A stretch of 38,197 nucleotides of DNA from Phycisphaerae bacterium (GTDB lineage Bacteria; Planctomycetota; Phycisphaerae; Sedimentisphaerales; Anaerohalosphaeraceae): positions 1 through 38,197 of the forward strand of contig JAHDQI010000221.1 of the NCBI GenBank assembly GCA_018433925.1, in the 5' to 3' direction. The translations under genes were made by a program, and so were the position numbers. The notes under the pieces are model-generated. The model ran no database searches. It had not been told where the DNA came from and worked only from the letters and a program-made list of their open reading frames with translations. This document shows, one piece after another, positions 3,515 to 38,197 of the stretch. The first letter of the stretch is position 1. Every line of letters starts with the position of its first letter.

Positions 3515-4669
3515 TCAATAATTTCTCATTACAGCCAATTCCCACGGCAGGTCATCGTAAACGAAATTGTCACCAATACCGTCCGCATCAAACGCCTGGA
3601 ATACAAGATCCAGATTCAAATCATCGATTTCCATCTTCTGGTTATATCCCGAGCGGAGAAGCGTAAAATGACTGACCTGGTCATATTTGGACCGTGATCC
3701 GTCTTCGTTGTAAAGTCGGCCGGGGTCTCCGGCAAACTCGTTTCGCTGCGGCTCGACCCGGTCCCAGGGTCCCTCGATTCGGTCGGCCATCAATGCAAAC
3801 ATGAACCGATTACGGCTGTCCCAATACGGCGCCCTTGTCGGATGCGGACGCACCGCTTCGGCCAGGGCCAGGTATTTATCAGCGGATTTGACGTAATATA
3901 CGCTTACCGCTTCGTGAAGACGCCACCGGCCCCTGGCATCTTCCCCCCACTCGGTCAGCACAGTCTCTCCCATCCCGTGGTCAGGCCCTCGCCCCATCCG
4001 CGAACGAACGGCCTTGTCAAGTCCCTGAGGAAATTCACCCAGCGGACATTCGATTCGAAACAGCGAACCCCGATGATCCGTGTAAAAAAGATGGGCTTTT
4101 TTCTCATCGCAAATGACCCGAAAATCAATCCAGAACTGCCCGGCCGGGGGAGGCGGAAGCAAATCCTTCGGGTTCGACCAGCCGTACACATTTTCAATAT
4201 CCGGGTTTGTCAGGTAAATCGGAACCAGATCATACTTTTCCGGAACATTTCGATGCGCCACGATGTACCAGAGCTTGTGCGGTTCAAAATAAAAAACCTG
4301 CGGCGCAATGACCACTTCATTGACGATCGCGCTGAGATTGTAGCGTTTTGCGTGCTTGAGCTCTTCCAGCGAAGGGGCCGATACATAGCCGGTTCCCGAA
4401 CGGCTGACGGGGACCGGAACCCCCTGCTCTTTTAAAGCCGCTGCCGTTTCGCGCTGAAATTTAGTCGTATAGAACAGATGATAATTCCCCTTGTAATAGA
4501 CGATCGTCGGGTCCTTGACAGCCACATCGTCAAAGCTGCCTTTCGGCCCGGCCTGCAAAATGGGTTTGCTGACCGTCCATTTGTCATATTGCAGGGCATT
4601 CTTTTCAGCCCGGCAGCCCATCGTCACAGACATAAACATCCCGATCATGAGTAATCTGTTTAATCGCAT
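3515..4669 (-). CDS. GH62-like alpha-L-arabinofuranosidase, secreted
   Basis: The 384-residue protein has a signal peptide ending near VTMGC (Cys19), so it may be a lipoprotein. The five-bladed beta-propeller pattern of GH62 is recognisable: VKDPTIVYYKG (Asp53, expected base), APQVFYFEPHKLWYIV, TNPDIENVYGWS, FWIDFRVICD (Asp182, expected pKa modulator), RIECPLGEFP and LHEAVSVYYV (Glu253, expected acid). GH62 enzymes remove L-arabinofuranose side chains from arabinoxylan. AGGAG sits 7 nt before the ATG. It is the last gene of the locus and a paralogue of the gene at 7893-9005, sharing a 15-residue exact stretch (IAPQVFYFEPHKLWY). A related clan-F family cannot be excluded without structure prediction. 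Confidence 0.8.
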   Translation of the reverse strand: MRLNRLLMIGMFMSVTMGCRAEKNALQYDKWTVSKPILQAGPKGSFDDVAVKDPTIVYYKGNYHLFYTTKFQRETAAALKEQGVPVPVSRSGTGYVSAPSLEELKHAKRYNLSAIVNEVVIAPQVFYFEPHKLWYIVAHRNVPEKYDLVPIYLTNPDIENVYGWSNPKDLLPPPPAGQFWIDFRVICDEKKAHLFYTDHRGSLFRIECPLGEFPQGLDKAVRSRMGRGPDHGMGETVLTEWGEDARGRWRLHEAVSVYYVKSADKYLALAEAVRPHPTRAPYWDSRNRFMFALMADRIEGPWDRVEPQRNEFAGDPGRLYNEDGSRSKYDQVSHFTLLRSGYNQKMEIDDLNLDLVFQAFDADGIGDNFVYDDLPWELAVMRNY

Positions 4670-4722
4670 TTTAAGACTCCTGTAAAAGTTTCCTGATTCT
4701 ATGCCGCCTCAGTGGACATCCT

Positions 4723-7700
4723 TCATCTTGCTTCCGGGAAGGGTCCACCCGATTCTGTTGTTATAGGAGCCGGTCGGGGTACGCCGCGACTGGCCTTGCC
4801 AACTAATAATCCCTGCTCGTCAAATCCAATCGGATCAATACAGACAAACCGGTCAAAGTCCAGCTGGTCGGTTCGCTTCTGATGATAAACCAGCCACATT
4901 TGACCCCGGCCGTCTTTGATTACGCTGCCGTGCCCGGGACCAAAAACATGGCCCTCTCGGCGGACAATCGGGTTATTGACCGCCCGCCTGAACGGACCCA
5001 TCGGACTGTCGGCAACCGCATATCCTATCGCGTAATCCGGCGATTTCGTATGCGTCCCGCTGTACAGCAGGTAATACTGCTGATTCTGCTTGAGCATCCA
5101 CGGCCCTTCCGTCACCTTATCCTGTCGCATCTCCCAATCGCTTTCCGGCTGCAGGATGACAACGGGCCGGCCCTGCGGTTCCGTTGGACTTTTCATGGGC
5201 TGAACCGTGATCTTAAAACCGGGGAATTTCACATAATACAGGTAAAGCCGTCCGTCCTCATCACGGAACAGATGTCCGTCAATCGCACGGCTTACGAATG
5301 AACGCACATCCTCAAAAGGCCCCAGCGGACTGTCGGCAACGGCCGCGCCAACTTCTTCATTCACTGTCCAGTAAAGATAAAACCGGCCGGAATCCGGATC
5401 TTTCCAGACATCCGGCGCCATCACCCGGGCTCCTTCTCTGCGGTAAACAGCCGGGCCCGGCTCCCAGTGGACCAGGTCCCGGGACGTATACACGCGGTAC
5501 CCCCCGGCGACCCCGCCCGTCGGGTACAGATAATACATACCCTCATGGAATAGAACCGATGGGTCCGCCAGGTGATCGATCACGGGATTGACATAAAAGT
5601 CTTTGTCCTGGCCGCCGGCCGCCTCAAGAAGTCCGACATCAATAAATTGTCCGCCTCTTTGATTCCCGCAGAAAACAGCCATTACATTTTTGCCTGTGCG
5701 GAGGGCATTTTTCCCGGCCGTTGACACATCACTGAGCGTATATTCATTTGTCCATCCGGACAAGCGGGCCGCCTCTGCGCCGTTAAGATAGACGGTCGCT
5801 TCATCATCGTGATGAATCGAAAGAAAAAGTGTTTCCAGGTCCGCCCGGGTCAGTTCAAATTCCCGGCGAAGCCATATTTCAGGCGTATTCCAGATCGTGC
5901 CTATGCGTGCCCCCCGGGTTCCTTCCGTGCCGAACCCGCCCGGTCCGGCTTTCCAGTCCGACGCGTCAAAATCAGGCAGCACCCATCCCGGGGACGGTTT
6001 TTCAAACGTATAGTCCCATGAACATGACCCTGCCCCGGCATTGGGCAGCACTGTCCTGACAACCGGAGGGCTTTTATACAAGCTCCGATTCAGAGGGGCA
6101 ATCACGTCCGGAGCCATTTTTATCACCGCCCTGTCGTAGGTCATCAGGCCGTTTACCTCGACTTCCACATCCGTCGTCTGGGTATAGACCGCAGCCGCCA
6201 GACCTTCCCCCACCAGATAATTCAGTTTCCGGATCAGTTCCGCATAGGCCTCCGTCAGGGCCTCCGCTGTTGTATAGCTCCGGTATCCCCACATGTCTTC
6301 ATCCTGCCAGGTGTGTCCGCTGACCGGCAGCCCCAGCCCCCCGAACTCGCCGAGAACAACGGCCCGGTCTTCCTCGAGGGCCGGCTTTGCCGGGCCGGGA
6401 TACTGATGAACATCATGGATATCGCCGACCTTTCGATCTGTCCAGCCGCTGGCATTAATAACCAGCCGCGTCGGATCCAGTTCCTTCGTCCACTCCGTAA
6501 TGCGGCGCGTATCGAACTGCCCCCACCCCTCATTAAAAGGTACCCACGTCACAATGCTCGGATGATTGCCGAATGACTCAATGAGTCTCCGGTATTCATA
6601 TTCATATTGCTGTGCCGAATGCGGACTTCGATTCAGGTCGGGCATGTCGTGTCCAATGTGCCCGTCCCCGTTGGGCATATCCTGCCAGACCAGGACCCCG
6701 ATTCGATCGCACCAGAAATAGAACCGCTGGGGCTCGACCTTGACATGCTTGCGAAGCATATTAAAACCCAGTTTTTTGGTCATCTCCACATCATACCGCA
6801 GCGCCGCATCGGTCGGGGCCGTATAGAGACCGTCCGGCCACCAGCCCTGATCCAGCAGGCCGTACTGAAACAGCGGCTGATGATTCAAAAACAGCCGATT
6901 GATGCCGCCGGCATCCTTTTTCATCTCAATCTTGCGCATTCCGAAATAGCTTCTGACTTCATCAACAACCTCCGCGCCGCGTGTCAGACGAACAACCAGG
7001 TCATACAGAAACGGATCATCCGGCGACCACAGGCGGGGATCGGCGATATCCACCGTCACCGTTTTATTCGAGGCGGCTGCCTTTGCGGAAAAGCCGCCGC
7101 CCGTAACGACAGCCGTAACAGACAGATTCTCGGCCTCTCCGCGGGCGGCTGCTTCGATGACAACACGGCCGCGATCGAGATCCGGAGTGATCTTCAGCCC
7201 GGCCATTGAGGTCTCAGGAACCGGCTCCAGCCAAACCGTCTGCCAGATCCCGGTTACCGAAGTGTACCAGATCCCCTTCGGATCCCTAACCTGTTTGCCG
7301 CGCGGCTGATATCCCGCGTCCGTAGGATCCCAGACGGAAACAACAAGCTCCTGCGATCCGCTGCCTCGCAGCGCACGGGTGATATCCAGTGAAAACGGAT
7401 CGTATCCCCCCTGGTGCCTGCCCATGTGCATACCGTTAACCCAGACATCCGTCTGCCAGTCCGCCGCGCCAAAATGCAGCAGGAGCCGCCGGTTCCGCCA
7501 TGCCGCCGGCCGCTCAAACGTCCGCCGGTACCAGAGCCGCTTGTCGGCCCCTACACGCCTGCCGACGCCTGACAGCGCCGATTCAACGGGATAGGGCACG
7601 AGGATGCGGCCTTCATACACATCGGGACACTCCGCCGTGCGGGGCAATATCGCATACTCCCACAAGCCGTTCAGGTTCAGCCAGTCCGGCCGCACCATCA

Positions 7701-34449: not shown

Positions 34450-36318
34450 TTATTCGACGGTGACGCTCTTGGCCAGGTTGCGGGGCTTGTCCACATCGTG
34501 TCCGCGCAGGACGGCGGCGTGGTAGGCCAGTATCTGCAGGGGCACGACCGTCAGCAGCGGCTGAAGCTGGTCGCAGGTTTCCGGCACGGTAATCAGGTGG
34601 TCGGCGTAGGGCTTGATGTGTTCATCGCCTTCGGTGGCGACGACAATGGTTTTTCCGCCCCGGGCGCGGACCTCCTCAATATTGCCGATGATTTTTTCGT
34701 ATTGCGAGCAGCGTGTGGCGACGAAAACGGCCGGCATGCGGTCGGTAATGAGGGCGATGGGGCCGTGCTTCATCTCGGCGGCGGGCAGTCCCTCGGCGTG
34801 GATGTAGCTGATTTCCTTGAGTTTCAGGGCGCCTTCGAGAGCGACGGGGTAATTGAATCCGCGGCCGAGAAACAGCCAGTTTTCGTGGTCCTTGTTGGCC
34901 TGAGCGATCTGGCGGATGTAATCGGTCTGGGCCAGGATCCGCTTGATCTTGGCCGGAATTTCCATCAGTTCCCGGAGCAGGGACTGGACGGCGTCGGTGC
35001 TGAGATGGCGGCGGCGGCCCAGTTCGATGGCCAGCATTGACAGGACGGCAACCTGCGCGGTAAAGGCCTTGGTGCTGGCCACGCCGATTTCGGGTCCGAC
35101 GCGCAGATACACGCCGGCATCGGTCAGCCGGGCAATGGAGGAACCGACCACGTTGACGACGCCGAGAACCAGGGCTCCTCGGTCGCGGGCCTGCTCGATG
35201 GCCGCGAGGGTATCGGCTGTTTCGCCGGACTGGCTGATGGCGATGACGACCGTGCCTTCTTCGAGGATCGGGTTGCGGTAGCGGAATTCGCTGGCGTATT
35301 CGACCTCGGCGGGGATGCGGGCAAGCTGCTCAAAGAGAAACTCCCCGACCAGGCCGGCGTGCCAGGCCGTTCCGCAGGCGGTCAGGATAATCCGCTTGGT
35401 GCGGGTCAGTTCGCGAAGATATTGCGAGACGCCGCCGAGGATGATCCGCCCGTTCTTGACATCGACGCGGCCGTTGAGGCAGGTTTCAAGCGAGACGGGC
35501 TGCTCGGCGATTTCCTTCTGCATGTAATGGTCAAATCCCTCCAGCTCGATCTGATCCAGAGAGATTTCGATTTCTTTGAGTTCTTTTTGGACCTCTTTGT
35601 TGGTGATGGTTTTGGTGTAGAACCCATCGGAGTCGATGATGGCCATTTCGCCGTCGGACAGGTAGATGGCCTGTGTGGTATGCTGGACGATGGCCGAGGC
35701 GTCGGAGGCGATGATGTATTCATTTTTGCCGACTCCGAGGATCAGGGGGCTGCCCTTTTTTACGCCGATCATCATATCGGGGCAGTCCACGCAGAGAATG
35801 GCCATGCCGTAGGTGCCGTAGATTTCGCTGAGGGCCTGCTGCACGGCCCATTCGAAGCGGTTGCAGTCTTTGGGAGCGAAGCGGCCGTTTCGGTCCTGAT
35901 TTTTGTCATAGAAATAGCCGATCAGGTTGGCGACAACCTCGGTATCGGTTTCGCTCTGAAAGGCGCATCCTTCCTTGATGAGCCATTTTTTGAGGGTGGC
36001 GTAGTTTTCGATGATGCCGTTATGGACCAGTGCGATTTTGCCGGTGTAATCCACATGGGGGTGGGCGTTGATCTGGTTTGGCTGGCCGTGGGTGGCCCAG
36101 CGGGTATGGCCGATGCCGACAGTGGAATCGGATTCGTATTCGGGCAAATTCTCCTCGAGGGCGCTGATGCGGCCGGGAGTCTTGGTGATGTTAAAGGCAC
36201 CTTTTTCGAGCAGCGCCACCCCCGCCGAGTCGTAGCCGCGATATTCAAGACGTTTAAGCCCTTCAATTAAAATGGGCTGAGCGTGTTTTCTACCGAAATA
36301 AGCAACAATTCCGCACAT
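34450..36318 (-). CDS. glmS: Glutamine-fructose-6-phosphate aminotransferase (isomerizing)
   Basis: This makes glucosamine-6-phosphate, the entry to cell-wall and amino-sugar synthesis. The Ntn-type glutaminase begins with the nucleophile Cys2 (MCGIVAYFG) and has RLEYRGYDSAG and HTRWATHG; two SIS domains follow (TACGTAWHAG, ISQSGETADT, GVASTKAFTAQ, FLGRGFNYPVALEGALKLKE). It ends in the canonical PRNLAKSVTVE. All catalytic regions are intact at 622 residues. AGAGGA lies 7 nt before the start. No glmS ribozyme is visible upstream. Convergent with mscL. Confidence 0.98.
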   Translation of the reverse strand: MCGIVAYFGRKHAQPILIEGLKRLEYRGYDSAGVALLEKGAFNITKTPGRISALEENLPEYESDSTVGIGHTRWATHGQPNQINAHPHVDYTGKIALVHNGIIENYATLKKWLIKEGCAFQSETDTEVVANLIGYFYDKNQDRNGRFAPKDCNRFEWAVQQALSEIYGTYGMAILCVDCPDMMIGVKKGSPLILGVGKNEYIIASDASAIVQHTTQAIYLSDGEMAIIDSDGFYTKTITNKEVQKELKEIEISLDQIELEGFDHYMQKEIAEQPVSLETCLNGRVDVKNGRIILGGVSQYLRELTRTKRIILTACGTAWHAGLVGEFLFEQLARIPAEVEYASEFRYRNPILEEGTVVIAISQSGETADTLAAIEQARDRGALVLGVVNVVGSSIARLTDAGVYLRVGPEIGVASTKAFTAQVAVLSMLAIELGRRRHLSTDAVQSLLRELMEIPAKIKRILAQTDYIRQIAQANKDHENWLFLGRGFNYPVALEGALKLKEISYIHAEGLPAAEMKHGPIALITDRMPAVFVATRCSQYEKIIGNIEEVRARGGKTIVVATEGDEHIKPYADHLITVPETCDQLQPLLTVVPLQILAYHAAVLRGHDVDKPRNLAKSVTVE

Positions 36319-36456: not shown

Positions 36457-36485
36457 TTGAAAAGTTAGGATTAACTAACTATATT
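36457..36485 (+). promoter_or_regulatory. Promoter with embedded operator for the regulator-feoAB unit
   Basis: TTGAAA (36457-36462), a 17-bp spacer and TATATT (36480-36485) make a good sigma-70-type promoter. A perfect inverted repeat AGTTAG-N6-CTAACT (36463-36480) fills the spacer, so a bound repressor would block polymerase. The TTAG/CTAA half-sites resemble DtxR-family boxes. Confidence 0.7.
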
Positions 36486-36511
36486 TAATGTACCTAATTT
36501 TTGAGACGTAT

Positions 36512-37036
36512 ATGACCTCAGGAAAAATTGAAAAACTCAGCGCCTCTCTGGAGGATTATCTGGAGGCGATTTTTAACCTGCTATCGGGGAAAACGGTGGC
36601 GCGAAGCAAGGATATTGCTGAAACCCTGGGGGTGACACGGGCCTCTGTGACGGGGGCACTTCGAAATCTGGCCCAAAAGGGTCTGATTCATTATAAACCC
36701 TATGGATATGTGACATTAACGGAACAAGGGAACCGTCTGGCTTCCCGTGTGGCGCGGCGACACGCGGTGCTGCATTCCTTTTTTTCGGACATTTTGGGAC
36801 TGGAAGAAGGGATTTCTCAGGAGGCGGCCTGCCGGGCGGAGCATTTGCTGGGGCCGGAGATCATCAATCGACTGACGGTTTTTATGGAGTTTGTGACTCG
36901 GCCGGATACCGAGGGAAAAGATGTTGCCGCGGAGTTTGAGGCGTTCTGCCGGGACGGCGGCCAGGACTTTCAAGGAAACCACACATCCGGGACGGCCGGT
37001 AAGGGATACAACGATGAACACAAAATCAAGCGCTGA
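36512..37036 (+). CDS. DtxR/MntR-family metal-dependent repressor, without SH3 domain
   Basis: The winged helix (SKDIAETLGVTRASVTGALRNL, about 32-53, with a TEQG wing) and the dimerisation/metal part are those of the DtxR family. Candidate ligands: His84 in RRHAVLH, and Cys107, Glu110, His111 in AACRAEHLLG, the Cys-x2-Glu-His of iron-sensing DtxR/IdeR rather than the Glu at that place in MntR. At 174 residues it lacks the C-terminal SH3 domain of DtxR. The start is ATG 36512: an upstream ATG at 36488 would lie before the expected transcription start. The gene overlaps feoA by 23 bp, so it probably controls iron uptake and itself. Confidence 0.88.
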   Translation: MTSGKIEKLSASLEDYLEAIFNLLSGKTVARSKDIAETLGVTRASVTGALRNLAQKGLIHYKPYGYVTLTEQGNRLASRVARRHAVLHSFFSDILGLEEGISQEAACRAEHLLGPEIINRLTVFMEFVTRPDTEGKDVAAEFEAFCRDGGQDFQGNHTSGTAGKGYNDEHKIKR

Positions 37037-37271
37037 ACAAATCCTGTTTCCGCTGTCTAAGGTGCCGGCCGGCCGTACGGTTCGGCTGGTCAGCGTAGAG
37101 GCCGGCGAGGGCCTCAAGAGCCGCCTGGCGGCGATGGGGCTGCTTTCCAACGTGAGTGTTTACGTGATGCGGAATGATTTCTGCGGGCAATTGATCGTGC
37201 GGGTGAAAAATACGAAGGTGGTTCTCGGACGCGGCATGTCGCAGAAAGTGCTGGTTCGGTCCATTTCGTAA
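37014..37271 (+). CDS. feoA: Ferrous iron transport protein FeoA
   Basis: This 85-residue SH3-like protein (LSKVPAGRTVRLVSVEAGEGLKSRLAAMGLL, then VVLGRGMSQKVLV) is the small cytosolic partner of FeoB. It has the family pattern of a charged beta-barrel with the conserved RLAAMGL turn. ATG 37014 has AAGGGA 7 nt upstream and overlaps the regulator gene. FeoB starts 8 nt after its stop. It probably regulates or assembles the FeoB pore. Confidence 0.94.
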   Translation: MNTKSSAEQILFPLSKVPAGRTVRLVSVEAGEGLKSRLAAMGLLSNVSVYVMRNDFCGQLIVRVKNTKVVLGRGMSQKVLVRSIS

Positions 37272-37278
37272 CGGTCGG

Positions 37279-38197
37279 ATGGAAAAGACAACGGAAAAAG
37301 AGGGTTCTGTGAAACAAGAGATTCTGGTTGCCCTGGTCGGCAATCCGAACAGCGGAAAGACCACGGTCTTTAACGCGCTGACGGGCACCCGCCAGCATGT
37401 GGCCAATTATCCCGGGGTAACCGTGGAACAGAAAGAGGGCTTCCGCCGGGTTGGAGAGCAGCGGCTTCGTATCGTGGATCTGCCGGGGACGTACAGTTTA
37501 ACGGCCTACTCCGAGGAGGAACTGGTCGCGCGTCATTTTATTCTCGATTCCCATCCGGATGTTGTCGTGGATATTCTTGACGCGTCAAACCTTGAACGAA
37601 ACCTGTACCTGGCCTCGCAACTGATTGAGATGAAGGCCCCGCTTGTGCTGGCGTTTAATATGAGCGATATTGCCAGACAGCGAGGGCTGGAATTTGACCT
37701 GGGCCAGTTGAGTGTTCTGCTGGGGGCGCCGATTGTTCCGCTTGTGGCCAGCAAAAAGCAGGGGATTGAGGACTTGCTCAAGACAATCCTTGAGGTTGCC
37801 GACTCGCCGTCTCCCTCAAAGGTCCGCATTCATTACGGGCATGAGATCGAAACGGAACTGGAAAAACTGTCGGCGGCGCTGGATGCGGACAGTCCGGCAG
37901 CCGTCAAATACGGACGCCGATGGGCGGCTCTTAAACTGCTGGAGGGGGATCCGGAAATTTTAAACGAGTCGTTATCCGACGATCTGAAGCAGACGCTGGA
38001 GCGCAGCCGGAGTCACCTGGAAACGATCTTTGCCGATTCGCCGGATATTTTGATCGCTGACCGGCGCTACGGGTTTATTTCGGGGGCCTGCCAGGAGGCG
38101 GTTCGTGATACGGTGGAGGTGCGGCATGACATCAGCGATAAAATTGACGCGCTCCTGACGCACCGGTATCTGGGGCTGCCGATTTTCGCGGGGATGA
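37279..38197 (+). CDS. feoB: Ferrous iron transporter FeoB, N-terminal part (cut by window end)
   Basis: 306 codons of the G-domain end of this large inner-membrane Fe(II) transporter are present. GTPase motifs: G1 GNPNSGKTT (21-29), G2 Thr48 in NYPGVTVEQ, G3 DLPGTYSL (67-74) and G4 NMSD (127-130). A helical regulatory domain follows (about 195-290). The membrane channel lies beyond the window. ATG 37279 is used; a GTG at 37309 with AGAGGG upstream would give a start closer to the usual FeoB N-terminus. Reading frame is open to the last base. Confidence 0.95.
   Translation, partial: MEKTTEKEGSVKQEILVALVGNPNSGKTTVFNALTGTRQHVANYPGVTVEQKEGFRRVGEQRLRIVDLPGTYSLTAYSEEELVARHFILDSHPDVVVDILDASNLERNLYLASQLIEMKAPLVLAFNMSDIARQRGLEFDLGQLSVLLGAPIVPLVASKKQGIEDLLKTILEVADSPSPSKVRIHYGHEIETELEKLSAALDADSPAAVKYGRRWAALKLLEGDPEILNESLSDDLKQTLERSRSHLETIFADSPDILIADRRYGFISGACQEAVRDTVEVRHDISDKIDALLTHRYLGLPIFAGM

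Follow-up and report, generated by a model that had tools for sequence, protein, structure and literature searches.

A dtxR-feoA-feoB operon with a conserved operator inside its own promoter: a predicted metal-responsive circuit in a Phycisphaerae bacterium

How a planctomycete might control a FeoAB importer from the gene just upstream, and with which metal, is the question raised by the end of the DNA analyzed here (the window, 38,197 nucleotides of a Phycisphaerae bacterium, which makes up the entire contig C148 of a draft assembly). A promoter and three co-directed genes occupy its final 1.7 kb; the genes encode a DtxR/MntR-family regulator, FeoA and FeoB, with feoB cut at the contig end. 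The features of this region are as follows:

36457-36462, plus strand: -35 hexamer TTGAAA, assigned from sequence; its spacing is conserved in homologous promoters
36463-36480, plus strand: predicted operator box 1, AGTTAG-GATTAA-CTAACT, with perfectly complementary arms AGTTAG (36463-36468) and CTAACT (36475-36480)
36480-36485, plus strand: -10 hexamer TATATT, assigned from sequence and conserved in homologous promoters
36484-36497, plus strand: predicted operator box 2, TTTAATGTACCTAA, 19 bp downstream of box 1 and over the -10/+1 region
36512-37036, plus strand: DtxR/MntR-family regulator gene, 174 aa, two domains (Pfam PF01325, PF02742) and an unconserved tail, stop codon at 37034-37036
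37014-37271, plus strand: feoA, ATG at 37014 (Pfam PF04023); gene order is the same in homologous loci
37279-38197, plus strand: feoB, 5' part only (Pfam PF02421, PF17910); an alternative later start, GTG at 37309, is possible

Pfam matches to a FeoA domain in the ORF after the regulator, and then to FeoB_N, identify the downstream pair as a FeoAB importer. The regulator gene overlaps feoA by 23 nt, an overlap already described in an earlier note on this DNA. An in-frame ATG lies at 36488, upstream of 36512; a start there would fall within box 2, and homologues of the regulator align from the ~36512 start. The nearest named relatives of the regulator come from a Planctomycetota MAG (58% identity) and a Phycisphaerales MAG (53% identity). 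The divergent neighbor on the minus strand (34450-36318) was judged by eye from its sequence to be glmS-like (glutamine-fructose-6-phosphate aminotransferase), with its start ~139 bp upstream of the dtxR-feoA-feoB promoter. With a probability of about three in four, we read dtxR-feoA-feoB as an autoregulated operon of a metal-dependent repressor, with Fe(II) as its main effector and possibly also Mn(II). Points that count against this reading include three Fur-family proteins encoded in the genome and a DtxR-FeoA paralogue that might recognize the same boxes.

The perfect inverted repeat reported in the earlier note between TTGAAA and TATATT was found as described; box 1 fills the 17-bp spacer between the -35 and -10 hexamers and has one base in common with the latter, and its core, TTAG-N6-CTAA, spans 36465-36478. 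An inverted repeat by itself proves nothing, because such repeats are common in shuffled intergenic sequence: when the 193-nt intergenic stretch was shuffled 2000 times, 66% of the shuffles contained some perfect repeat with 6-bp arms and a gap of 0-12, and 11% contained one with a gap of exactly 6. Although the latter frequency would be compatible with an A+T-rich promoter forming such a repeat by chance, we give this explanation hardly any weight, given the position-by-position conservation in 31 loci, where the flanks are saturated, and the enrichment of the box over a reversed control across the order.

The promoter alignment behind this comparison consisted of 30 homologous loci and the window, lined up on box 1. 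Box 1 was in the same position at all 31 loci, and its core match averaged 7.77 of 8 (2.26, sd 0.61, at other offsets), a score that is partly by construction because the alignment was anchored on this box. Its fixed place relative to the -35, the -10 and the gene is not by construction, and neither is box 2, which the earlier note had overlooked. At exactly +19 bp, box 2 matched with a mean of 6.77 of 8 over the 31 loci, compared to 2.26 (sd 0.61) at other offsets, and its right arm YTAA, located outside the promoter hexamers, was present in 23 of 31 loci compared to ~0.4 at other offsets. The copy of box 2 in the window is degenerate (6/8 core match, with the left arm affected). Conserved alignment columns read CTTG..AA, GTTAG, CTAAC, TATATTA and a further YTAA, with almost no information in the flanks, and the -35/-10 spacing was 17 bp in 26 of the 31 promoters and 16-18 bp in all of them. 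From the score at +19 and the position of the right arm outside the hexamers, we infer that the operator unit comprises a site in the spacer and a second one, in tandem, over the -10/+1 region.

To what extent this operator is shared was assessed with sequence patterns and a promoter profile trained on the 31 sequences. The profile had one match in the source genome (E 7.5e-10) and matched 66 of 118 genomes from the order, usually at a single place per genome, and some of the matched genomes (G035, G280, G320, G326) were outside the training set. Box 1 can be considered real because of these matches and its conservation in every aligned locus. No second site was found in the source genome by the promoter profile, in a scan that used patterns and this one sequence profile only; this is expected, since the profile was trained on a double-box promoter. 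In a search for the repeat elsewhere in the genome, as the earlier note had proposed, exact AGTTAG-N6-CTAACT had a single copy in the whole genome. A TTAGGTGCACCTAA box lies just upstream of the genome's other feoB (contig C419), a boxed locus that had been missed.

Among 298 genomes of the class, 14 contained a strict pattern, with one match each, all within the order (reversed control, 0 matches), and the exact palindrome AGTTAGGNNNNCCTAACT from 28 of 161 genomes (reversed control, 2 sites). The gene behind the exact box was dtxR in 18 of these 28 loci and feoB in 7 (within ~45 nt); the remaining boxes preceded, one each, an OprB porin gene (G044, L159), a PEP-CTERM/prepilin cluster (G052, L156) and a CbiX gene (G335). 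In genome G336, a box matching at 13 of 14 positions was found before the CbiX gene, with a flavodoxin gene next, and a second dtxR was equipped with a double box as well, at the same 19-bp offset. An operator-like AATAAGGTGCGGCTAACT (two mismatches) also precedes a PEP-CTERM/prepilin cluster on C419 of the source genome (L001:7503-12335), which is homologous to the G052 cluster and encodes a PEP-CTERM protein, a prepilin-like protein, two proteins lacking a Pfam match, and an OprB porin. Exact TTAG-N6-CTAA matches on contigs C82 and C397 of the source genome, with no metal gene in the adjoining ORFs read, are probable noise, and near matches on C212 and C326 lie within or beside non-metal genes.

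The arrangement dtxR-feoA-feoB with a predicted self-operator is thus one that recurs widely in the order. An autoregulated dtxR-feoA-feoB repressor is well supported because the boxes are conserved and because exact boxes precede dtxR and feoB elsewhere, and we consider the operator very probably autoregulatory. The proposals of the earlier note that the operator lies within the regulator's own promoter, that the circuit is autoregulated and that feoAB is under its control are supported.

The boxed second feoB (feoB2, L001 5009-7075 on C419) is accompanied by a gene for a DtxR-FeoA fusion (4316-4954) and adjoined by a ZnuA-type ABC importer. This fusion has 78% identity to a fusion of another genus in the family (G034) and is absent from the same-genus genomes compared, which suggests transfer or a mis-binned contig. 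That the boxes are read mainly by this paralogue, and that the window regulator controls something else, would fit with the TTAG-N6-CTAA box before feoB at the paralogue locus and at those of its relatives in G034 and G006. However, the paralogue's own promoter has a different repeat, ATAAG-N6-CTTAT, and in most relatives with a boxed promoter the short regulator is the only or best DtxR match, which means that box and short regulator go together. We therefore regard a main role of the paralogue as very improbable, and retain the window regulator as the likely reader of its own operator.

The regulator itself belongs to the DtxR/MntR superfamily (PF01325, 57.8 bits, cut-off 26; PF02742, 58 bits, cut-off 27). 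Pfam gave no match to an SH3-like or FeoA domain within it, in agreement with the earlier note, and a separate feoA is next. The structure model (mean pLDDT 72, from a three-sequence alignment, and thus fit for the fold and not for metal-site geometry) was closest to Bacillus subtilis MntR (Z 16.8, rmsd 2.9, 129 residues aligned), with DtxR entries at Z 12-14; pLDDT was <50 in the tail (residues 152-174). Matches to the NCBIfam MntR equivalog models were below cut-off (84 bits vs 153 and 78 vs 138), as was the match to the NCBIfam DtxR model.

With the start at 36512, the DtxR-like Cys107-x2-Glu-His motif reads Cys107-Arg-Ala-Glu110-His111, and the predicted metal ligands are Asp15, Glu18, His84, Cys107, Glu110 and His111. 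All were present in 31 of 31 homologues with the exception of Glu110 (30 of 31). This is the ligand set of MntR with Glu99 changed to Cys (31/31), leaving five of six MntR ligands present and near-invariant. The primary site of DtxR/IdeR (Met10, Cys102, Glu105, His106) is incomplete, with Cys, Glu and His present but Asp in 31/31 at the position of DtxR Met10, and so is the DtxR ancillary site: His79 is kept, but the window has His in place of Glu83 (Glu in 8/31) and Gln in place of His98 (His in 2/31). The DtxR sequence used in this alignment was checked against PDB 1bi0 and had one difference in 140 residues. The 'iron-type' label that the earlier note had given the regulator thus finds partial support at best: Cys107-x2-Glu-His is DtxR-like, but Asp15, Glu18/His84 and the two-domain build are MntR-like and do not vary within the family.

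A further change concerns DNA recognition. The sole direct hydrogen bond of IdeR to a DNA base comes from Gln43, which contacts the leading C of CCTAA (PMC8464063). The corresponding position is Gly in 29 of 31 homologues, and the inner base pair that matches it in the box shows degeneracy (G in 22/31 on the left, C in 7/31 on the right), with an outer G:C gained. Exchange of Gln43 for Gly and degeneration of the inner base pair would form a coherent fit between protein and site. Because the recognition helix differs from that of IdeR, the pairing of protein and operator is drawn from conservation only.

Fe(II) is favored over Mn or a dual response by roughly three to one. What tips the balance toward iron is the predicted regulon (feoAB, feoB alone, an OprB/FeoP-type porin and CbiX-flavodoxin), whereas the cysteine does not decide the matter. 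The boxes before OprB porin genes speak for iron since such porins are linked to feo genes elsewhere, as in Acidithiobacillus, where the OprB porin FeoP occurs with feoABC under Fur (feoPABC; PMC2631029), and in Geobacter, where an OprB porin is linked with feoAB (PMC545781). The same circuit could instead have manganese, or manganese and iron, as effector, with FeoAB serving or being tuned by manganese in the manner of PgMntR and FeoB2, and the MntR-type ligands and two-domain build of the window regulator would be in line with this. The published account of PgMntR, a protein with the same mixed Asp/Cys/Glu/His site, describes it as a Mn regulator and Porphyromonas gingivalis feoB2 as a Mn transporter; the operon promoter of PgMntR is bound better by the metal-/Mn-loaded protein than by apo-PgMntR, high Fe(II) is inhibitory, and Cys108 is required for full Fe(II) binding (PMC4805248). 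In addition, TroR of Treponema denticola responds to both metals (PMC2628430), and the ZnuA-type ABC importer adjoins the DtxR-FeoA paralogue. We nevertheless consider a manganese effector unlikely: boxes precede CbiX-flavodoxin and OprB porin genes, Met10 and Cys102 raise the Fe selectivity of IdeR (PMC10317159), and no recognized Mn transporter gene was found beside the exact boxes in the 28 loci read, where annotation was limited.

In the favored, iron-responsive circuit, an adequate supply of Fe(II) in the cytoplasm, and possibly of Mn(II) as well, would load a regulator dimer at its MntR-shaped, one-cysteine site, and the metal-loaded dimer would bind TTAG-N6-CTAA. One dimer may occupy box 1 in the -35/-10 spacer and a second one box 2, which lies 19 bp further along over the -10/+1 region, and together they would keep RNA polymerase off the single promoter, such that regulator, FeoA and FeoB drop together; when metal falls, the promoter would open. 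This mechanism is ordinary for the family, a variant of a well-known switch, and what is unusual is the mixed metal site, the detached FeoA and the tandem half-site operator. A literature search of partial coverage returned nothing on a DtxR-feoAB circuit in planctomycetes. The locus offers a testable planctomycete metal regulon, with one conserved operator, whose probable reader is a short protein of the DtxR family, and with FeoAB, and probably also the porin and flavodoxin, as predicted targets. It also offers a natural test of metal choice in the DtxR/MntR family, with one Cys in an otherwise MntR site.

The detached FeoA is not the rule in all relatives. Three of them (L019, L022, L029) have a regulator with a FeoA domain joined to it, and L019 also keeps a separate feoA. 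In four genera of one family within the order, fusions of ~440 aa, in which one chain combines a DtxR regulator with an entire Fur domain and a FeoA domain, were observed ahead of feoA-feoB:

L087:824-2155 (G055): DtxR-Fur-FeoA fusion
L088 (G047), minus strand: DtxR-Fur-FeoA fusion
L089:664-1980 (G058): DtxR-Fur-FeoA fusion
L090:576-1904 (G043): DtxR-Fur-FeoA fusion

The domain matches were obtained with Pfam on three fusions tested. In L089 and L090 an OprB-like gene, judged by eye, lies between the fusion and feoA-feoB. The promoters of L087-L090 keep a dyad between -35 and -10 with changed arms, for example GTTCGA-N4-TCGTAC in L089/L090, a pattern that would fit a joint change of operator and regulator. 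The literature search, again of partial coverage, returned no paper on a DtxR-Fur-FeoA fusion, and this triple fusion is stranger than the circuit in the window. One conceivable role for the detached FeoA would be to act in trans as the repressor's missing SH3-like third domain, with a transporter subunit tuning the repressor. Both this idea, against which the loss of DtxR ancillary ligands in the window regulator's family speaks, and its extension, that the DtxR-FeoA and DtxR-Fur-FeoA fusions are joined versions of the regulator/FeoA pair, are in our view long shots. Irrespective of function, the occurrence of split, fused and Fur-fused forms within one order offers a natural test of how the FeoA/SH3 domain was gained and lost.

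Compared with known systems, the regulator resembles B. subtilis MntR in fold, length, the ligands Asp8, Glu11, His77, Glu102 and His103 and the lack of a FeoA/SH3 domain, but Glu99 of MntR is Cys107 here, and the operator is TTAG-N6-CTAA with feoAB as target. Side-by-side MntR dimers have a precedent in mneP, where four 18-bp sites extend over 84 bp (PMC11275975). With DtxR/IdeR it shares Cys102-x2-Glu105-His106 and a box equal to the one-dimer IdeR half site, and it differs in having Asp for Met10 and Gly for Gln43, in not keeping Glu83 and His98, and in lacking an SH3/FeoA domain. In the 19-bp IdeR box, one dimer contacts repeats 1 and 3 and the other repeats 2 and 4, and the half site TTAG-N6-CTAA (repeats 1 and 3) binds one dimer with a Kd of 78 nM (PMC8464063). 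Because IdeR repeats 1 and 3 spell TTAG-N6-CTAA, the planctomycete boxes are likely single-dimer sites; the two-dimer box TTAGGTTAGSCTAACCTAA is absent from the window promoter, which has two single-dimer sites only. The two dimers of DtxR/IdeR are 5 bp apart on their 19-bp box (the IdeR offset as read off the consensus), whereas the two sites here are 19 bp apart. PgMntR is alike in its mixed Asp/Cys/Glu/His metal site and adjoining feoB gene, and unlike in being described as a Mn regulator with two C-terminal FeoA domains, whereas the window regulator has none and feoA is separate. Fur-controlled feoAB/feoPABC operons provide the parallel in regulon content, with a metal-repressed ferrous iron importer and an OprB-type porin.
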